This document shows, piece after piece, positions 23,165 through 35,248 of a stretch of DNA of 64,000 bases. Both the position numbers and the translations under genes were made by a program. The first letter of the stretch is position 1. Each line of letters opens with the position of its first letter. The notes below the pieces were generated by a model. It was given only the letters and a program-made list of their open reading frames with translations. It searched no databases and had not been told where the DNA came from. Source of the DNA: Clostridia bacterium (lineage in GTDB: Bacteria > Bacillota > Clostridia > Christensenellales > CAG-138); the NCBI GenBank assembly GCA_017524445.1, contig JAFXVP010000050.1, positions 1-64,000 on the forward strand, written 5' to 3'.

Positions 23165-24931
23165 ATGGAACAACAGGAAAAAACGTCCGGCAAGGTGCTC
23201 TTTGAGACGCTCCGGGAACAATTCAGAAAAATCATTCCGAAAAAACCGCTGCGCGTACTGCTTACGGCGGTCACGATCGTGCTGCTTCTGGGGCTTGTGA
23301 TCGGGATCGTCAGCGGCTCTCTTGCGATCGCGAGATGCGGAACGGGCCGTGTGATCGAAGCCGACGCGGAGCCGGTCGCAAACGTACAGCCCGCGCGTCC
23401 GGACCCGGGCTTTTCCAGCGATACGGTGGTCGTGGTCCATACGAAGGAGCCGGAAGCGACAGCTGTCCCGCTTCCTACCGAAGCGCCGACGCCCGAACCG
23501 CAGGATACGCCGGAGCCGGAGGTCACGCAGGACCCCGCGGACGCAACGAACTTTCTCAACGGAAAGACCCTCCAGAAGGGCGATACCGACGAGCTCATTA
23601 TCACCGTGCAGTCGTCGCTGATGGAGCTCGGCTACATGGACCCCGACGAGCCGACCGACTATTTCGGCAATCAGACGCAGGACGCGATCATCACGTTCCA
23701 GAAGCACAACAACCTGCTGCCGGACGGCATCGTGGGCGAGGTCACCTATGCGCTGCTCGTCGGCGGACAGGCCAATGAGTACGTCATGCAGGAGGGCGAC
23801 GAGGGCGACGACGTCAAGGAGGTGCAGGACCGTCTTTACGAGCTCGCCTATCTCGATAAAAACAGCCGTACCGGCACGTTCGGCGAAAAGACCGCCGCGG
23901 CGGTGCGATCGTTCCAGAGCGCGAACGGTCTGAAGGTCGACGGAAAGGTAGGCGCAAAGACGCTGAACACGCTGTATTCGAGCGACGTCGTCAGCAACAG
24001 CTATAAAGCCGGCGATTCGGACGAGATCATCATTTCCTATCAGAAGCGCCTGCAGAAGCTCGGGTATCTTTCAAGCGACTATGCGTGCTCTGGCAAGATG
24101 GACAGCAAGATGGTTTCCGCCATCAAGACGTTCCAGGAGGCAAACGGCCTCGTACGCGACGGCTGTCTCGGTCCCGCGACGATGGAGCAGATCAACAGCA
24201 AGGACGCGGTGCATTACGCCATGCGTCTCGGCATGAGCGGCTCCGCGATCCGTGCGGCGCAGCAGAAGCTGTACAAGCTCGGCTATATTCGCTCCAGCCA
24301 GGTCACCGGCTATTACGGAGAGACCACGGTCGAGGCGGTCAGGTCGTTCCAGAAGCGCAACGGCATTTCGCAGAGCGGCGAGATCAACGCCAAAACGCTT
24401 GAAAAGCTGGACAGCGAAAAGGCGAAAGCGGCGCAGACGGCTTCCGTCAAGAAGACGGCGACGCCGAAGCCCTCCGGCGGCAAGACGACGCCGAAACCCA
24501 GCGGCAGCAGCGGCAGCAGTGGTACGGTCTCAAGCTCAAAGGGCGTCGAACGGTTCATCGAGATCGCGCAGAGCAAGATCGGCTGCCGGTACGTGCGCGG
24601 CGCAAAGGGACCGAACCAGTTCGATTGCTCCGGCTTCGTATACTGGTGCATGAATCAGGCGGGCGTGCGGCAGAGCTATATGACCAGCATCATCTGGCGT
24701 TCGTGCTCGAAGTACAAGCGCATCAACTCGATGAGCTCCATCGAACGCGGCGACGTCCTCGTGTTCTCCGGCTCGTCCATGGCGACAGGTCACGTCGGCA
24801 TCTATCTCGGCGACGGAAAGATGATCGACGCGTCCTCCTCGGACGGACACGTCCGCATCACGTCGAGCAACATCCTGAAGAGCAAGTACTGGCAGGAGCA
24901 CTTCCTGATGGCATACCGCATCTGGGATTAA
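23165..24931 (+). CDS. Membrane-anchored NlpC/P60 peptidoglycan hydrolase with four peptidoglycan-binding repeats
   Basis: 588 residues. Cytoplasmic N-terminus, one TM helix (LLTAVTIVLLLGLVIGIVSG, about residues 36-56), a Pro/Glu linker, then four PG_binding_1-type repeats with LG(Y)-x-x-D..G..T..A(I/V)..FQ patterns (about residues 140-420). A Ser/Lys linker and an intact NlpC/P60 domain follow. The catalytic Cys is in FDCSGFVYWCM and the His in ATGHVGIYLG. It would cut stem-peptide bonds in the wall; contrast the inactive copy at 12016. Confidence 0.93.
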   Translation: MEQQEKTSGKVLFETLREQFRKIIPKKPLRVLLTAVTIVLLLGLVIGIVSGSLAIARCGTGRVIEADAEPVANVQPARPDPGFSSDTVVVVHTKEPEATAVPLPTEAPTPEPQDTPEPEVTQDPADATNFLNGKTLQKGDTDELIITVQSSLMELGYMDPDEPTDYFGNQTQDAIITFQKHNNLLPDGIVGEVTYALLVGGQANEYVMQEGDEGDDVKEVQDRLYELAYLDKNSRTGTFGEKTAAAVRSFQSANGLKVDGKVGAKTLNTLYSSDVVSNSYKAGDSDEIIISYQKRLQKLGYLSSDYACSGKMDSKMVSAIKTFQEANGLVRDGCLGPATMEQINSKDAVHYAMRLGMSGSAIRAAQQKLYKLGYIRSSQVTGYYGETTVEAVRSFQKRNGISQSGEINAKTLEKLDSEKAKAAQTASVKKTATPKPSGGKTTPKPSGSSGSSGTVSSSKGVERFIEIAQSKIGCRYVRGAKGPNQFDCSGFVYWCMNQAGVRQSYMTSIIWRSCSKYKRINSMSSIERGDVLVFSGSSMATGHVGIYLGDGKMIDASSSDGHVRITSSNILKSKYWQEHFLMAYRIWD

Positions 24932-27159: not shown

Positions 27160-27534
27160 CATAAGGACAGTATAGCAGGATTTCGAAAAAAGAAAAGACC
27201 TTTTATGGGACAGAAAGATAATATATGATCCGCAGGCATCATCAGCATGGGATCCGCGCCGTTTATCTTGCCTTTTATTCCGTCAACTGGTATTATTATT
27301 TACGATATAACCCGAATACGGCAGCCGCGGAGGATGTACCTTTTTAGGGTAAAAACGCGTTCTCTCTGCGGAGCGGCAATGTATTTACGCGGCGGCAACG
27401 GGGCCCGCGTTTTTCGCGCGCGGCCTTCAGCTGCGCATTTTTGCCGATCGAAACAAAAAATGCCGATCGCATCAAACCAAATTGTGAGAAACGGCGTCTA
27501 TACGGTAAACCAACAGGGAGCGGGGCGGATCCAT
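27160..27534. other. Leader region of the ECF-sigma fusion gene
   Basis: No gene supported: the frame stays open upstream of 27535 but encodes no zinc-ribbon-like or signal sequence. It holds two copies of TGCCGATCG (about 27442 and 27462) and T-rich tracts. A promoter is probably here but none can be fixed with confidence. Confidence 0.4.
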
Positions 27535-30168
27535 ATGAAATGTAAGTATTGCGGAGCGGAACTCAACGAAGGCGAGCTGTTTTGCTATCGCTGCGGAAAA
27601 CAGGCTGAACCGGAACCGGCGGCGCGGTTTTGCATACAGTGCGGCGCAGAGCTCGAGGCGGACGCGGCTTTTTGCTGGAGGTGCGGCGCGTCGGTCGACG
27701 TCGAAGCAGGGCAGGAGAGCGACAGCGCATCTGCCGCCGGACAGGACGGCGCCGAAGCGGACGATCGTAAGGCGAAGACGGAAGCGCTGGTCGTTTCCGC
27801 GCAGGGCGGCGACAGCGACAGCTTTACCGAGCTGTATCAGCTGTATTATCAAAAGGTGTTTGCACTCGCGAAAACCACGGTCAAGACGGACGCCGACGCA
27901 GAGGACGTGCTGCAGATGACGTTTCTCAAGGCGTGGAACAACCTCGACAGGCTCAAGAATCCCTCCGCCTTCTCCACGTGGATCCAGCGCATCACCCTGA
28001 ACCAATGCTACAGCCTGCTCCGCAAAAAGCACGCGGATGTGTCCATCGACAACGATGACGAGGACGCGGAGCCGATCCAGCTCGAATCCGACCTGATGCT
28101 GCCCGAGGTCTACGCCGAGCGCAGCGATCTCAAGGCGCGGCTCGGCAAGATCATCCGCGAGCTCAGCGCCGTGCAGCAGCAGACGATCACGCTCTACTAT
28201 TATGATGAGCTGCCCGTTGAAAACATCGCGTGGATCATGGACTGCAGCGTGAACACGGTCAAGTCCCGTCTGTTCCTCGCCCGCAAGTCGATCAAAACGG
28301 AGATCGAGGAACAGGAGCGCAAGTCCGGTCAGCCGTTTTACGGCGTCATCGGTCTTGCATCCATACCGTTCGGCAAGCTGTTCGTCGGACAGATGGAATC
28401 GACGGCCTTGCCGGAATCCGCCGCGGCGGAAGTGCTCCGCGCCATCACAAAGCAGATCGCGCGGCGCGCGGCGGGCGCTGCCGGACAGGCCGCGGGAACC
28501 GCTGCAAAGGGAGCGGCCAAAGTCGGCGTCAAGACGGCGACGAAGGCGGTTTCGACAGCCGTTTCCAGGAAGATCATTGCGGGCATCGTTGCCGGCGCGC
28601 TTGCGACAGGCGCCGTCGCCGGCGGCACGGCCGCGGCGGTCAGCGCGGTAAGGAAGGATCGCGCGGAAACCGCACAGGTGCAGAGCGCAGAGGAAACGCC
28701 CCGTACTGCCGCAAACGGACCGTACGGACAGGATTTGCCCACGGTTCAGCCGACAGAGGACGATCCGCGGCAGCAGGAGCTGCAAGCCGCCTATCAGGCG
28801 TATCTCGACTGTCTGATCGAAAACAAATCCGGCATCGATAACTATATCTGGCAGAGGGGATATGCGATCCCCTTGTTCGATGATAATGACAATTCTTATT
28901 TCGCGCCTTTGACGGACGAGTATCTTGCCCGTCCGGTCGTTCTGTGCGACATTTGCGGCGACGAAATACCGGAATTGATGTACATGGGAGACGTCGCGCC
29001 CGGAGAATGGGGAAATGAGTATTATTACAACGAAACCGGCGCGAACCTGCATATTGTGACCTATCGGGACGGCAAGCTTGTCGACTTGTTTTCAAGCGAC
29101 AGATCCTGGGATGACGCCGAGTATTGTTTTCCGTACAGCTTGTTTCAGGTCGAGGGCGGCAAGGAATTATACGCAACATATGCGTGGGGAGACCTCTGGG
29201 AAGAAGATACCTTATTCTGCTTTCAGGAAGGATCTGACGGGAAACTGCATCAGACGCAGGTGTGCAGATATTATTTCGAGGGATATGAAGGCGACGATAA
29301 TGGATCCGCGTTGCGCGAACCGGAGTATTATTACGGCGCTGATGAGACGGAGATCCCGAAAGAAGAATATGACAGGATCCGGGGTTCCAAGATCGATCAT
29401 ATATCGAATCCCCTGATGTACAATTATTACGGCATATGGGACGTTCGCCCGGCCGTGGAGCAGCACGGCTGTGCCGCCATGACCTGTGACGAGGCGATCG
29501 CATGGCTGGAAAAGCAGCTTGAAGGCGGCGCGCCAACCGTGTCGCTTCCCGCCGACATGCCCGCTTCGTTCTGGCAGAGTTCCGGCGTGGGCGCATGGAG
29601 CGAGGATATCACGTTCCGTGCAGACGGAACAATTGTCGGCGAATTCCACGACACGGACGCCGGCTGGGACGGCGACGGCTATGACTGGACCGTAGATTAT
29701 TCCTCTTATACCTGCCGGATCGGCAGCGTCCGCAAGATCAACAGCTATACGTATTCCTTTGTCGTGGAGAGCGTTGAATATGACCACCCGATCGGGAAGG
29801 AAGAGATCGTCACGGACGACGGTGAACGCATTCGTTATTGTTACACGACCGGCTCGTTTGCGGAAGGCGCCGAGGTCACGGTGTACTTAAGAAACGCGCC
29901 GATCGAAGCGATTCCGGCGCCGGCTTTGGAACTGTATGAAACAGCGACCGCGCAGCAGGTCATGAGCCCCATGCCTTGCTGGGTGCTGTATTGCGAACGA
30001 ACCAACGGGAGTTTTTTCTCGGATCCGTCATTTTTTACAAATTTCATCAAACCAAATATAAAATTACCGCGTCTATGTAGTGTAAAACAAGGAGAGTATG
30101 GAGGAACAATATGGGCTCGGGCGGAATTACTTTTATCATTGTCGCCGTCATGCTCGGCATCGCCGTGA
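27535..30168 (+). CDS. Zinc-ribbon / ECF sigma factor / transmembrane / extracellular fusion protein
   Basis: 877 residues from MKCKYCGAEL. Two zinc ribbons (CKYCG..CYRCG, residues 3-21; CIQCG..CWRCG, 39-57). Sigma-70 region 2 at about 95-165 (LYQLYYQKVFALAKTTVKT; AEDVLQMTFLKAWNNL) and region 4 at about 210-262 (VENIAWIMDCSVNTVKSRLFLA). An Ala/Lys-rich stretch, one TM helix at about 345-368 (IIAGIVAGALATGAVAGG), then about 500 extracellular residues of no known family. The protein would be a membrane-tethered sigma factor. The last 60 or so residues read across the promoter and 58 bp into the next gene and look foreign to the domain, suggesting a lost stop or frameshift near 30000. Confidence 0.85.
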   Translation: MKCKYCGAELNEGELFCYRCGKQAEPEPAARFCIQCGAELEADAAFCWRCGASVDVEAGQESDSASAAGQDGAEADDRKAKTEALVVSAQGGDSDSFTELYQLYYQKVFALAKTTVKTDADAEDVLQMTFLKAWNNLDRLKNPSAFSTWIQRITLNQCYSLLRKKHADVSIDNDDEDAEPIQLESDLMLPEVYAERSDLKARLGKIIRELSAVQQQTITLYYYDELPVENIAWIMDCSVNTVKSRLFLARKSIKTEIEEQERKSGQPFYGVIGLASIPFGKLFVGQMESTALPESAAAEVLRAITKQIARRAAGAAGQAAGTAAKGAAKVGVKTATKAVSTAVSRKIIAGIVAGALATGAVAGGTAAAVSAVRKDRAETAQVQSAEETPRTAANGPYGQDLPTVQPTEDDPRQQELQAAYQAYLDCLIENKSGIDNYIWQRGYAIPLFDDNDNSYFAPLTDEYLARPVVLCDICGDEIPELMYMGDVAPGEWGNEYYYNETGANLHIVTYRDGKLVDLFSSDRSWDDAEYCFPYSLFQVEGGKELYATYAWGDLWEEDTLFCFQEGSDGKLHQTQVCRYYFEGYEGDDNGSALREPEYYYGADETEIPKEEYDRIRGSKIDHISNPLMYNYYGIWDVRPAVEQHGCAAMTCDEAIAWLEKQLEGGAPTVSLPADMPASFWQSSGVGAWSEDITFRADGTIVGEFHDTDAGWDGDGYDWTVDYSSYTCRIGSVRKINSYTYSFVVESVEYDHPIGKEEIVTDDGERIRYCYTTGSFAEGAEVTVYLRNAPIEAIPAPALELYETATAQQVMSPMPCWVLYCERTNGSFFSDPSFFTNFIKPNIKLPRLCSVKQGEYGGTIWARAELLLSLSPSCSASP
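30033..30062 (+). promoter_or_regulatory. Promoter of the 168-aa membrane protein gene
   Basis: TTTACA, a 17-nt spacer and TATAAA (about 30055-30060), inside the 3' end of the fusion ORF and about 50 nt before the next ATG. Confidence 0.55.
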
Positions 30169-30617
30169 TCGTCGGTGTTGTAACGTACAACAAAAAGAAG
30201 AATTTACAGGAGGAAGGAAAGATCATCAACCGTTCCGGTAACTTCTGGGAAAGCGCGGAGTTTCTGACGACCGTTTCAAGCTACGCCGAGATCAAAAGCG
30301 GGATCAAAAAAACCGATCTTGCTTCATGCGGCGTCACGGCGGAATACGATTTCAACGGAAAGGCGGCTATTTTCTTCAAGTGCTCGCACGGCTGGAACGG
30401 CGTTTTGCAGCTCTCCGGCGTCACGACGGACGGGAAGCAGAACGTGTTTAAGCTGTACTTTCCGGCATGGCGAACGATCAAATACGGTTTTCCCGCAGGC
30501 GCGATGGAAATGAATCAGTTCCGGACGACGATCGAAAAGGTCTTTTTGGATTACGACTACGACACAACGGTTCAGCTTCGCAGAATGGAGCTGAAAACGA
30601 AAACCGATTTTGTTTGA
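30111..30617 (+). CDS. Single-pass membrane protein of unknown function, 168 aa
   Basis: MGSGGITFIIVAVMLGIAVI starts an N-terminal TM helix (about residues 6-26), then NKKKNLQEEGK and a soluble domain of about 130 residues. The domain has no recognised motif (FKCSHGWNGVLQLSG; FPAGAMEMNQFRTTIEKVFLD). Orientation is probably N-out/C-in by the positive-inside rule. SD AGGAGAGTATGGAGG. First of a run of envelope genes that may follow the sigma fusion. Confidence 0.75.
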   Translation: MGSGGITFIIVAVMLGIAVIVGVVTYNKKKNLQEEGKIINRSGNFWESAEFLTTVSSYAEIKSGIKKTDLASCGVTAEYDFNGKAAIFFKCSHGWNGVLQLSGVTTDGKQNVFKLYFPAWRTIKYGFPAGAMEMNQFRTTIEKVFLDYDYDTTVQLRRMELKTKTDFV

Positions 30618-30631
30618 GGGGGTGACGGCAA

Positions 30632-32077
30632 ATGGAAGGAAACGCGGTATTATGGCTCATTTTAATCATCGGCGGTCTTACGCTCGTTTACCTGCTGATC
30701 CGGTACGTCATCAACCGCGGCGTTGACAAGGCGACGGACGCGATCCATAACTCGCGGGTTCGCAGCAAGAACGAACAGGCGGGCAGCGTCTATAACGCGC
30801 CGGTTCAAAGAAACGCGGCGGTCACAGGCTCCGCCTCCGCCATTTCCGCCGGGAGCGACAGCTCCCCCGTTCTGCGCGATGGCGTGCAGTATCTGCGCGA
30901 CTGGTATCCGAATTACCGGCCCGCGCACATTCGTCACGGTCTGCAGGGATATGCGTCGACGGCTGCCGTACCGACGGCGCCTAAGCCCGATCCGGCTCCC
31001 GTGCGTTCCGTTCCGGTTTCGGAACAGCCCGCCGCGCAGAGAACCGCGCCGGTTGAAGCGTACCGGTCGGAGCCGCTGAACCGTACGCCGGCTGAGACGA
31101 CGCCGGTCAGAAGCGCGCCTGCGGCGCAGCCGGTCGCAGCGACCCGTTACGGCGCGGCAAAGGACGCCGCTGTGAAAACGCCGCAGCGCACCGCCGAGGG
31201 CAAGCAGCCGGAAGAACCGCTTCGCGGATTTCTGAAGGCGATCGTCATCATCTACTATGTCTGCACGGGATTGACGCCGACCTTGGGGCTGATCGCCGCG
31301 ATCACCATGTTTTCCTCAGCGGCATTGCTGAACAGCTTCGGGATCGGCGCAGGGTTCTTCGTATTCCTCGGCGTTTTCATGCTTGCCGTCTGCGTCGGCG
31401 TCGGGATCGTCTGCTTTCGGTTTGCAAAAAAGATCGTCAAACGCGATGCAAGCTTTTTGCATTACTATCATAAGGCGTTCATCGTGTGCGTCCTTGCGGA
31501 GCTTCTCATTCTGATCCTGATGCTGACGGTGCCGGTCTACGGCGCGCCGCTGGCACGCTACAGCCCGTCGGTGATCGGAGAAATGATCATTTCGATCCTG
31601 CAGGGCGCGGCGGGCACGATCGGGCTGACGGTATTCTTTGTCCGTTCACGATATGTGCATGCCTACATGGGAAGCGACGATTATCTGTACCAAAGCCCGT
31701 TCACCAGACGCTGCGCAAAGTTTGACGCGCCCGCGAAGCAGCCCGTTTCCGCGCGCACGACCGCGCCGCAGACAGCCGGACCGGCTCCCGCGCAGGACAT
31801 TTCTTTCGGCTGCTGCTGCATCTGCAGCAAGCCGCTCGAAAGCCGGTACGCCGTGCTGTACCGTTCCGCCGACGGAACGGATGCGCGCGTGGATCGCATC
31901 TGCTACGAAGCGCTGCGCGATCTCGGCACAAGCGAGGATCCGGACGCGGTTCTTCGGGCAAAGCAGTATATATTCGGAAAGGCAGAGGTCTACCGCAATC
32001 GGGCGTTATCCGAATACCTGGAACCGTACGAGCAGTCCGCCGTCGCGTTTCTGCGGCAGAGCCGGACAGCCGACTGA
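30632..32077 (+). CDS. Multi-pass membrane protein with a Cys-rich cytosolic tail, 481 aa
   Basis: N-terminal TM (LWLILIIGGLTLVYLLIRYV), a long low-complexity Ala/Pro/Arg segment (about residues 40-195), then four hydrophobic helices (about 200-345). The C-terminal domain carries GCCCICSKPLESRYAVLYRS, a possible zinc site. It contains DWYPNYRPAHIRHGLQGYA before the low-complexity part. No family recognised. Begins 14 nt after the preceding stop with a GAGGGGG SD, so same operon. Confidence 0.75.
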   Translation: MEGNAVLWLILIIGGLTLVYLLIRYVINRGVDKATDAIHNSRVRSKNEQAGSVYNAPVQRNAAVTGSASAISAGSDSSPVLRDGVQYLRDWYPNYRPAHIRHGLQGYASTAAVPTAPKPDPAPVRSVPVSEQPAAQRTAPVEAYRSEPLNRTPAETTPVRSAPAAQPVAATRYGAAKDAAVKTPQRTAEGKQPEEPLRGFLKAIVIIYYVCTGLTPTLGLIAAITMFSSAALLNSFGIGAGFFVFLGVFMLAVCVGVGIVCFRFAKKIVKRDASFLHYYHKAFIVCVLAELLILILMLTVPVYGAPLARYSPSVIGEMIISILQGAAGTIGLTVFFVRSRYVHAYMGSDDYLYQSPFTRRCAKFDAPAKQPVSARTTAPQTAGPAPAQDISFGCCCICSKPLESRYAVLYRSADGTDARVDRICYEALRDLGTSEDPDAVLRAKQYIFGKAEVYRNRALSEYLEPYEQSAVAFLRQSRTAD

Positions 32078-32105
32078 CAGAGATCGGAGATAGGAGAGAG
32101 AATAA

Positions 32106-33350
32106 ATGTTTTGTATCTATTGCGGAAAAGAATTGCGGGAAGACGCGACGTTCTGCTCGTACTGCGGAAAGCCGATCGCGGCGGATCGTCCGGCGGAACC
32201 GGCTCAGGCGGAAACGGTACGCCCTGTGCCGGAGGAACAGCCGATCGCGGCTCCGGTGCATGTACCGGAAGAACCGGCATGGCAGACGGATGCGGCCGGG
32301 ACGGAACCGTCGGAGCCGTCCGGCGTGCACCGAATGAACAAGGTGCAAACCTTTGTATCGGTCCCCGCGGAATGGCAGGTCGACGCGCCGCCGAGGACGA
32401 GTTACGAAAAGCAGCCCGCGCCGAAGCCGAAAACAGCGGCAGCCGCCGACGCGGTGAAGGAGAAAGCCGCGCGTTACGGTGAGATTGCGAAGGAAAAGGC
32501 CGTGCAGGTCGGCACAGTCGCAAAAGAGAAGGCTGTACAGTACGGCACCGTGGCCAAAGAGAAGGCCGTCCAATACGGCGGCGTCGCCAGGGAACAGGCA
32601 AAGAAGCTCGGCGCGACCGCAAAGGAAAAGGCGTCGGAAGGCGTCGGCAAGCTGAAAAAAGCGCCGGTCGGAAAGCTCGAAAAGAACGCGTTTACGGCCG
32701 CTTCCGTTGTTTCCCTGCTGTCGCTGCCGATCCTTCTGCTGACGGCATTCGTTCCGTATTGCCGCGTTGCGTATTCCGAGGAGCGGGCGGCGAACATGCC
32801 GCTCCTAAAGCTCATCTTCGGCGGGACCTATACGCTCGGCAGCTCCAATCCGCTGCAATTCACGCTGAAAGCGCATCCGGAGCTGATGGCGCTGCTGCTG
32901 ATCCCGCTGATCGCGCTTCTGATCCTGTTCTTCCGAAGAGCGAAGCAGCGGCTTTGGATCGCCTCCGGGGTCCTGCTTGCGGACGGTCTGGCGACTGTGA
33001 TCTGGAACCGTGCGGCGCTTCGTCAGATGCAGGATATCGTTTCGGGATTGTCCTTGGAAACATTTGAGGAGCATGTCGTCAGCATGAACAGCGTGGTTGT
33101 GAAGTGGGTGCAGAATGTACTGCGCGGGGATCTGTCCTTCCGGAACACCTTTTTCCTGACAGGAAAGCTCGGACGCGGGCTGATCGGGCTGTTCGGATGG
33201 AGCGCAATGCTTGCCGGCGTCGCGGGAACGGCGCTTTGCGTGATCCTGCTGATCGTCAAAAAGAGCGCGAAGCGGGCAGCGCCGTCGGACGCCGCGAAGA
33301 ATGGACCGGGCGAAGACGACGTGCCGGTATTATCGGGGGAATGGTTATGA
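32106..33350 (+). CDS. Zinc-ribbon membrane protein with 11-residue helical repeats, 414 aa
   Basis: An N-terminal double CxxC zinc ribbon (CIYCGKELREDATFCSYCGK) is followed by a Pro/Glu-rich stretch. Six tandem 11-residue repeats of the form KEKAVQYGTVA lie at about residues 117-182, and four or so TM segments follow (PILLLTAFVPYC; ALLLIPLIALLILFF; the last LAGVAGTALCVILLIV). The 11-mers resemble LEA/synuclein amphipathic repeats. Function unknown. The next gene overlaps it by 4 bp (ATGA). Confidence 0.82.
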   Translation: MFCIYCGKELREDATFCSYCGKPIAADRPAEPAQAETVRPVPEEQPIAAPVHVPEEPAWQTDAAGTEPSEPSGVHRMNKVQTFVSVPAEWQVDAPPRTSYEKQPAPKPKTAAAADAVKEKAARYGEIAKEKAVQVGTVAKEKAVQYGTVAKEKAVQYGGVAREQAKKLGATAKEKASEGVGKLKKAPVGKLEKNAFTAASVVSLLSLPILLLTAFVPYCRVAYSEERAANMPLLKLIFGGTYTLGSSNPLQFTLKAHPELMALLLIPLIALLILFFRRAKQRLWIASGVLLADGLATVIWNRAALRQMQDIVSGLSLETFEEHVVSMNSVVVKWVQNVLRGDLSFRNTFFLTGKLGRGLIGLFGWSAMLAGVAGTALCVILLIVKKSAKRAAPSDAAKNGPGEDDVPVLSGEWL

Positions 33351-35248
33351 TCTGTAAATATTGCAACACCGTATTTGATACAAGCAGGGTCAGACCCGGC
33401 GAGCGCGTGCGCTGCCCCGGCTGCGGCCAGTCCTATCTTCGCAAGGCGGCGCCGAGCGTACCGTCCGTGCCGGAGAAACCGGCGTATGAACCGAAGCCGC
33501 AGGCAGCGTCCAAACGGAAAGCGGCGCGCGAAAAGCCGTCGGTCGGCCTGATCGTCGTACTGATCGTCTTTATCGTTCTGCTGCTGACGGTGATCGCGGG
33601 GATACTCACGTACGTGTTTGCGCCGGATACGTTCCAAAGGATCATGTCCGGGAAGCTTGAGAAAAAGCAGGCGGAAAGCATAAACGATCCGTATGTCACG
33701 GTTTCGTCGCGCGCCGTGCGGTACAACGACGACGGATCGGAGCGGGACGCTTCCGTCACGGCTTTTGCATACGAACCGAACGGACTGGTGCGTTTCGCGA
33801 CCGTCGACGGCGAACAGACGTTCATCTCCTATGAATACGACGGGAACGGGTATCCGTCCAAGATCACGATTTGGCGGCCGGGATACGATGATTCCTGTGA
33901 AATCTCCGTGAAAACGGAACGCAAGGCCGACGGGATCACGCGCGTCACGATGACAAACGAAGACGAATTCGGTTTTATGTGGAATCTCGGTTTTATGTTT
34001 GCGTACTTTTCTCTGTACCGCGACGCCGACCTGACCGACGGAACGGATCTCATACAGATCCGGGACGGCGAAGTCGTTTTCAGCCGTCTGCACGAACAGG
34101 GTACCCTGCATACAACGGAAGTGCAGAAGAACCGTGACGGCAGCAGAACGGTCGTTGAAGTATACGAGAATACCGATTCCGCAAGTTATTCAAAGATGAT
34201 CGCGCAATACGACGCAAACGGCCGCCTTCGGAAAACAAAACAGCAAACCGGCGAAGCGTCGGCAGTCGTTACGCTGCAGTACTTCCGCGAAGAAACGGAG
34301 GATACCGAGGGCTTCCTCGAAAACGGTATCGTCGTCGACGTGCAGGGCGACAGCACGCTGATCGCGGAGGACTATCAGGCGTTGGGCGGCATTGCCAAGC
34401 GGTACCGTTATGACGAAAGCGGCGAACTGACCGAAGAAGAGACGTTTGATCTGATCCATACGGAACCGACGAAACAGGAGTTCTACGAGAACGGCGATCT
34501 CGTCCGCGCCGTTTACAACACGTACTTCGACGACAGGCTCCATTTACAAGCGATCACGGAGCTTGCGCCGCTTTCCGAAGCGTCAAGGCGGAATCACGAA
34601 CAGACGCCCCAAAGCGCCGCGGTCATACCGAGCCCCGCAGCGCAGCCCGAACAGCGCCCCTCAGAGCAGCCTGAGCAGAGCACGGAAACGCCCGCGCCGA
34701 TCATGCCGGCCGAAGCATTGACGCCGGAACCGACCGAGCCGCCGACGCCTGCCCCGACGCCGGAGCCGACGCAAGAACCGACCGAACCCCCGACGCCGAC
34801 GCCGGACGCGACGACCGTACCGACGCCGGATGAGGACGAATCGTTCCTGTACGGCACGATCACCAACGTCAAGAAGCGCGGCACGGTGCGCATCGGTCCG
34901 TCGGAGAACAGCGAACGCATCGGCGCGATCGCCAAAGACGCCATCGTGATCGTGCTGGACATCGGCGAGGAGTATACCAAGATCCGTTATTCGGGCGGCG
35001 TTGCCTATGTCCATACAAAGCTGTTCACGTTCTCGGCAAAGGGCAAGATCGTGAACGTGAACAATCGCGCGACCGTTCGCTCGCAGCCGGATTCGGAAAG
35101 CGACCGGCTCGGCGCGATCGACAAAGGCAAGTCCGTTACCGTGCTGGAATTCGACGGAACGTGGATGAAGATCGAGTACAACGGCGGGATCGGCTACGTA
35201 TTCGGCGAATATGTACAGGTCGACGTAACGATGGACTTATTGGATTGA
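33347..35248 (+). CDS. Zinc-ribbon, single-pass protein with two C-terminal SH3-like domains, 633 aa
   Basis: N-terminal ribbon MICKYCNTVFDTSRVRPGER with CPGCG, one TM (VGLIVVLIVFIVLLLTVIAG, about residues 64-84) and a YD-repeat-like extracellular region (YEYDGNGYPSKI; RYRYDESGELTEEE). Then a TPEPTEPPTPAPTPEPT linker at about 460-500 and two bacterial SH3 domains (ITNVKKRGTVRIGPSENSE..; IVNVNNRATVRSQPDSESD..). SH3b domains usually bind wall peptides. The ATG at 33347 has the better-spaced GGGGG SD; the ATG at 33341 is the alternative. Confidence 0.85.
   Translation: MICKYCNTVFDTSRVRPGERVRCPGCGQSYLRKAAPSVPSVPEKPAYEPKPQAASKRKAAREKPSVGLIVVLIVFIVLLLTVIAGILTYVFAPDTFQRIMSGKLEKKQAESINDPYVTVSSRAVRYNDDGSERDASVTAFAYEPNGLVRFATVDGEQTFISYEYDGNGYPSKITIWRPGYDDSCEISVKTERKADGITRVTMTNEDEFGFMWNLGFMFAYFSLYRDADLTDGTDLIQIRDGEVVFSRLHEQGTLHTTEVQKNRDGSRTVVEVYENTDSASYSKMIAQYDANGRLRKTKQQTGEASAVVTLQYFREETEDTEGFLENGIVVDVQGDSTLIAEDYQALGGIAKRYRYDESGELTEEETFDLIHTEPTKQEFYENGDLVRAVYNTYFDDRLHLQAITELAPLSEASRRNHEQTPQSAAVIPSPAAQPEQRPSEQPEQSTETPAPIMPAEALTPEPTEPPTPAPTPEPTQEPTEPPTPTPDATTVPTPDEDESFLYGTITNVKKRGTVRIGPSENSERIGAIAKDAIVIVLDIGEEYTKIRYSGGVAYVHTKLFTFSAKGKIVNVNNRATVRSQPDSESDRLGAIDKGKSVTVLEFDGTWMKIEYNGGIGYVFGEYVQVDVTMDLLD

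Follow-up and report, generated by a model that had tools for sequence, protein, structure and literature searches.

ECF signalling usually takes two proteins, a sigma factor and an anti-sigma factor. The window analysed here, the whole stretch of 64,000 nucleotides from a Clostridia bacterium, contains a gene for which an earlier note, made from the same DNA, had proposed another arrangement, with outer domain, anchor and sigma factor combined in one polypeptide. This raised the question whether one protein does the whole ECF job, as it seems to do, with a sensor outside the cell, an anchor and a sigma factor. The reading frame was open from the ATG at 27535 to the stop codon at 30168. In the encoded protein a double zinc ribbon was followed by sigma regions 2 and 4, a motif of 20 aa, a neck, a TM helix, an outer part and a tail:

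27535..30168, + strand: reading frame encoding the tethered ECF sigma factor, 877 aa, homologous up to near 30027
27541..27693, + strand: double C4 zinc ribbon, cytoplasmic, aa 3-53; Pfam Zn_Ribbon_1 8e-9, DZR 6e-8
27832..28029, + strand: sigma region 2, aa 100-165; Pfam Sigma70_r2 2e-14, model and fold match
28138..28290, + strand: sigma region 4, aa 202-252; Pfam Sigma70_r4_2 7e-12, fold match
28324..28383, + strand: conserved hydrophobic motif SGQPFYGVIGLASIPFGKLF, aa 264-283, immediately past region 4
28420..28572, + strand: basic Ala-rich neck, aa 296-346, from composition
28573..28641, + strand: single TM helix, Ala/Gly-rich, aa 347-369, from hydropathy; position kept in relatives
28765..29520, + strand: outer domain 1 (YQAYLxxL...DIxGDxxPELIYxGD...), aa ~411-662, common to L138, L043 and L044; medium-confidence model
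29566..30021, + strand: outer domain 2 (SGVGAW...), aa ~678-829, predicted beta-rich, common to L138 and L142; low-confidence model
30031..30168, + strand: non-homologous C-terminal tail, about 45 aa, without counterpart in relatives

The domain search (Pfam) and hydropathy analysis agreed with the earlier note that two zinc ribbons, sigma regions 2 and 4, neck, TM helix and outer part lie in one frame. The neck of 51 aa contained 18 Ala, 10 Lys or Arg and a single acidic residue. Residues 347-369 formed the hydrophobicity peak of the protein, with a modest best 19-residue Kyte-Doolittle mean of 1.74 (1.6-2.8 in relatives). Behind the TM helix followed about 460 outer residues in two domains and then the tail (about 480-500 residues in all); the claim of roughly 500 extracellular residues thus held for the length, but the last ~45 of them are non-homologous.

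By the features tested, the window protein is an ECF (group 4) sigma-70 factor. It scored 94.9 bits with the sigma70-ECF model TIGR02937 (cut-off 42.9), no Pfam match to a region 1.1 or region 3 domain was found up to E 0.1, and its closest PDB relatives by sequence were AlgU, sigmaE and SigW. In the AlphaFold2 model the pLDDT was about 90 and above for region 2 and about 80-88 for region 4. The modelled region 2 superposed on E. coli sigmaE bound to -10 DNA (4lup) with 1.3 A over 87 columns, and the modelled region 4 on E. coli sigmaE bound to -35 DNA (2h27) with 1.2 A over 63 columns. Moreover, the segments that correspond in the alignment to the sigmaE helices for core and -35 binding were conserved. 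A degenerate sigma domain with missing core- or promoter-binding residues, which the earlier note had named as a possible refutation, was ruled out by these superpositions and conserved contact segments; as judged from alignment and model, the regions contacting core, -10 and -35 are intact and the sigma part looks working.

Relatives were searched in 23 genomes of the source genus, namely the window's own and 22 others. Two of the 22 had orthologues (A-type): G007 carried two copies (L043 and L045) and G011 one (L044); the same contigs occur in the public MAGs RGIG775, from dairy cattle omasum, and RUG13494. Further A-type relatives were L138 (RUG14781), L142 (a Ruminococcus sp. MAG) and L143 (another Clostridia MAG), cattle rumen and omasum being the source of relatives. 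In a buffalo rumen MAG the A-type sigma (L144) was truncated to 142 aa with region 4 missing and appears to be a decaying copy. A second subfamily, B, without zinc ribbons, was present in 9 of the 23 genus genomes including the window's own (contig C12, an open frame of 730 aa), and other tethered ECFs were present elsewhere in the class. Among 68 compared sigma regions, 31 had a TM helix 63-118 aa past region 4, 34 belonged to solo ECFs ending 0-19 aa past region 4, and three had a long extension without TM helix. The same genus also contained L057, L058 and L059, with C-terminal extensions of ~270 aa without TM helix, as a separate clade of one-piece ECFs. In the tree, the A clade of seven related proteins (support 100/97) and the B clade (98/99) were both firm. 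All tethered proteins fell on one side and 33 of the 34 solo ECFs on the other, with a support of 91/94, below the level that the tool marks with a star. One old fusion is the simplest reading of this tree, the number of origins being unsure because of long branches. The layout of outer domain, anchor and sigma part in one polypeptide was kept in the relatives, and the window protein belongs to a widespread, little-studied Clostridia family.

The outer part was a variable module that differed even among close relatives. Interchangeable outer domains in the family included NPCBM, RCC1 and YD repeats and others; L044 carries NPCBM domains, and no carbohydrate-binding module was recognised by Pfam in the window protein. 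Many of the subfamily B proteins (L038, L046, L047, L049, L050, L052, L054) had W[ST]EWSxxxPP motifs, and many B proteins had long TP-rich linkers followed by a terminal aromatic-rich stretch with R/Y/W residues. For the outer domains of the window protein, no sequence match to solved structures was obtained up to E 1. Foldseek gave a best E of 2e-3 with TM-scores under 0.2, and VIA-align of the medium-confidence outer model gave a best Z of 5.4 over 139 residues, a value that common arrangements also reach. These comparisons covered mainly outer domain 1 and, to a small extent, the low-confidence outer domain 2. Given these low scores and the medium confidence of the model, no fold was assigned, and the search yielded no convincing likeness to any known structure.

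We propose, as the probable explanation of this architecture, a single-polypeptide membrane-tethered ECF sigma factor in which an outer signal would free the sigma domain, likely by proteolysis, to drive promoters with the motif TYAAACY-N16-CGTCTRT. The cytoplasmic sigma domain would be held at the membrane by the Ala-rich neck and the one TM helix, the sensor would be the variable C-terminal portion on the outside, and a change sensed there would make the sigma domain available to RNA polymerase. Release would most likely proceed by trimming of the outer part and subsequent intramembrane cleavage of the Ala/Gly-rich TM helix. The freed sigma would then start transcription at promoters of this type, yielding more of the sigma itself, the adjacent membrane-protein operon and other secreted proteins. 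That the outer part acts as sensor and the tether as inhibitor is held with moderate confidence. To our knowledge, IutY of Pseudomonas putida is the only one-piece case studied experimentally. Less strongly, proteolytic release of the sigma domain is suggested by analogy, since cleavage by Prc and RseP sets IutY free (PMC5411451), truncations of the ECF52 protein SCO4117 from Streptomyces coelicolor suggest excision of its sigma domain (PMC5826349), and M50/S2P-type and PrsW-type protease genes are present in the window genome. The presence of proteases is a weak argument, as M50 genes were found in 14 of 14 control genomes; these enzymes are common and nothing links them to this protein. The moderate hydrophobicity of the TM helix also counts against the proposed explanation.

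The long neck of ~65-120 aa between region 4 and the TM helix, which occurs in all tethered relatives, could also give the sigma domain enough reach to act in the membrane. The signal would then rearrange or oligomerise the outer part and expose the sigma domain, and the neck would let RNA polymerase load without cleavage, similar to ToxR/CadC-type one-component regulators. No protease gene was noted beside the orthologues examined, which fits this explanation. However, IutY depends on its two proteases and the sigma domains of ECFs are as a rule free, and we regard activity at the membrane as unlikely, though worth keeping in mind.

The stretch immediately past region 4 offers another way of control without cleavage. 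A counterpart of SGQPFYGVIGLASIPFGKLF, of the type LYGxxPIPFLxYFL, was found at the same place in nearly all of the 31 tethered ECFs, whereas solo ECFs end before this site and so cannot carry one. The motif is a signature of tethered ECFs and could help to find more of them. Its conservation in otherwise divergent proteins would fit an on-board anti-sigma element (SGQPFYG...PFGKLF in the window protein) that is pulled off by signalling through the TM helix, in the manner of ECF41-type extensions. Against this, the AlphaFold2 model showed no confident contact between neck and sigma domain, and the stretch could equally be a helix on the membrane surface, which makes such an element doubtful. 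The neck itself was rejected as an intramolecular anti-sigma domain, the confidence of the model being low in the neck past aa 319. Nor was an anti-sigma domain recognised by Pfam in the window protein or the scanned neighbours. In line with the earlier note, Pfam recognised no anti-sigma gene adjoining the window gene, as would be canonical for ECFs, and the neighbourhoods of five orthologues (L138, L142, L143, L044, L045) agreed.

The zinc ribbons are indeed present in the window protein, but they stand outside the core design, since L142, L143 and the whole of subfamily B lack them; they are a lineage-specific addition that is dispensable in the family. At the 5' end of the L043 sigma ORF (G007:C2), the zinc ribbon (MYCQHCGAEIKEDDRFCAICGT...) was complete and had a good ribosome-binding site, but its frame differed from that of the sigma part; either the MAG contains a frameshift here, or ribbon and sigma have been separated. 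A role of the ribbon as ZAS-type anti-sigma domain was dismissed, as it has no HxxxCxxC motif and lies at the wrong end of the protein. Similar zinc ribbons occurred on several membrane proteins of the predicted regulon, and it is a guess that the ribbons of the sigma may contact them. A far-reaching and rather improbable extension of this guess is a large Clostridia family of one-piece sensor-sigmas without anti-sigma or proteolytic release, in which RNA polymerase would be recruited at the membrane and the ribbons of sigma and targets would assemble, feeding the envelope state back to the sigma domain.

Of the new results, the predicted cognate promoter, derived by comparative genomics, is the most useful. 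An ECF-type promoter, TYAAACY-N16-CGTCTRT, with a -35 element of AAC type and a -10 element of CGTC type ~16 nt apart, lay upstream of the sigma gene in all seven A-clade members. The window contained two copies:

27472..27507, + strand: predicted ECF promoter of the sigma gene, TCAAACC (-35-like), N16, CGTCTATACGGTA (-10-like and downstream), exact match, 63 nt upstream of the gene
30047..30082, + strand: second predicted promoter copy, for the downstream operon, exact match, 64 nt upstream of gene 30111; same arrangement in L138

In genomes that lack the sigma, a first, shorter motif also matched what seems to be conserved coding sequence, and for this reason a longer, strict pattern of 36 nt was adopted (TYAAACY-N16-CGTCTRTRNNGTR, up to one mismatch). 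This pattern matched 16 times in the seven genomes with an A-type sigma (counting the truncated L144 copy), and the reversed-pattern control gave 0 matches. From base composition, about 0.001 exact matches and about 0.06 matches with one mismatch are expected per 2.4 Mb. All 16 sites were on the right strand and 53-118 nt upstream of a start codon, except one at 265 nt. Six lay upstream of sigma genes and the other 10 upstream of other genes; the seventh self site, that of L142, departs from the strict pattern in its outermost bases. The motif was defined partly on sites that it now describes, so the self sites are no independent evidence, which comes from the sites found after motif definition and from the empty relatives. 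A loose version with two mismatches gave 20-30 matches per genome against 6-16 in the control and was too noisy for a target list. Subfamily B genes had sigma-A-like, not ECF-like, sequences upstream. Elsewhere in the class, no AAAC-CGTC promoter was seen before the six long tethered ECFs scanned, minus-strand loci being left unturned.

These comparisons strongly suggest that the A-type sigma reads the TYAAACY-N16-CGTCTRT motif. Its position before the sigma genes and the next operon, and its co-occurrence with the sigma across genomes, further indicate that autoregulation and control of envelope genes by the sigma are very probable. Region 2 was matched 22 times in the genome and the link between sigma and motif is a correlation, so another, soluble sigma might read the motif, with the tethered protein merely a target and its sigma domain serving something else. 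This is very unlikely, as motif and A-type sigma occurred together in seven of seven genomes and the strict pattern had no match in any of the 24 related genomes lacking an A-type sigma (all being incomplete MAGs, in some of which the missing sigma may be a gap). Moreover, these 24 motif-free relatives share many soluble ECFs, and autoregulation is typical of ECFs.

Behind the second motif lies a predicted operon (30111-35248) that consists partly of zinc-ribbon membrane proteins:

30111..30617, + strand: predicted target, small membrane protein, 168 aa, motif 64 nt upstream; homologue L091 1624-2103
30632..32077, + strand: predicted target, membrane protein, 481 aa, no Pfam match
32106..33350, + strand: predicted target, zinc-ribbon multi-TM protein, 414 aa; homologues behind a motif in L138 and L092
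33347..35248, + strand: predicted target, zinc-ribbon-like, TM and bacterial SH3 protein, ~633 aa; in L138 and L092 located behind the 32106 homologue

The motif also stood upstream of zinc-ribbon membrane proteins in L138, L144 and G011. In G011, homologues of 30111 and of 32106-33347 were found at two other places, both with a motif; at one of them it preceded a small membrane protein whose C-terminus carries a zinc ribbon, with the 30111 homologue as second gene. In G017 the downstream genes were kept, including an ORF resembling the 30632 gene before the 32106 homologue, and neither sigma nor motif was seen. Further motifs preceded mutually similar secreted proteins of L142 and of a remote part of the L143 genome, a secreted repeat protein in G007 and a lipoprotein in G000; another site in L142 lay before a secreted Big_2 protein whose transcription is directed away from the sigma gene. 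In L144 (2275-3497) the motif was followed by a zinc-ribbon membrane protein and then by the truncated sigma. Near the sigma gene, the window also encodes a four-fold peptidoglycan-binding NlpC/P60 protein (23165-24931), whose homologue in G011 (L091 2646-4361, minus strand, 45% identical) adjoins the regulated genes although those have moved.

The last ~45 aa of the window protein have no counterpart in the relatives. L138 and L142 end right past the equivalent of FFSD (window aa 827), the third-position GC falls from ~0.7 in the gene to 0.41-0.48 in the tail, and the predicted promoter and start (30111) of the next gene lie within the tail-coding DNA. These observations suggest that the tail is probably a read-through after a lost stop codon, or a local sequence error. 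That the fusion as a whole is a frameshift, chimera or annotation artefact, as this read-through and the frame offset in L043 might suggest, is hardly credible, since the sigma-neck-TM-outer order recurs in 31 proteins of many genomes, third-position GC is steady over the sigma-TM junction and all relatives carry both parts in one frame, which rules out the frameshift at this junction that the earlier note had considered.

In comparison with known systems, the SigI/RsgI and SigW/RsiW pairs of Bacillota likewise pass an envelope signal through a single-pass protein with exchangeable outer domains and a site-2 protease pathway (PMC12203970), but their sigma and anchor are two proteins instead of one polypeptide. 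Two Clostridia groups, ECF262 (Ruminococcus albus) and ECF288 (Blautia producta), have extensions of unknown mechanism according to a review table of the Casas-Pastor classification (PMC8999054); ECF288 is described with a Cys-rich extension like that of CorE, and ECF262 may include relatives of the window family. An earlier description of this family elsewhere is possible, our literature search having covered open papers. The predicted promoter makes a tethered one-component sigma testable and would provide a sigma/promoter pair with a built-in surface sensor. Closest in design is IutY (ECF243), in which sigma and anti-sigma form one polypeptide (PMC5411451; PMC8999054). Both chains combine an ECF sigma domain, one anchor and a C-terminal outer part, so that a separate anti-sigma gene is not needed. 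However, IutY contains a FecR-like anti-sigma portion and responds to a siderophore receptor of the outer membrane, whereas the window protein is from Clostridia, has unrelated outer modules and gave no Pfam match to a FecR domain up to E 0.1. Members of ECF52 and of ECF48/ECF53 also join sigma domain, TM helix and a large variable outer part, and excision of the sigma domain has been proposed there; the TM helix followed by a large outer extension is present in the window protein. In contrast, ECF52 is known only from Actinobacteria and has a zinc finger (pfam13490) between sigma and TM helix, a proline-rich stretch and a carbohydrate-binding module. The window protein had neither a match to this ZAS-like zinc finger nor an HxxxCxxC motif there, and its C4 zinc ribbons are N-terminal and dispensable in the family. 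Lacking both the FecR-like domain and the zinc finger between sigma and TM helix, the window sigma would, by analogy, work like IutY and ECF52 while being a member of neither group.
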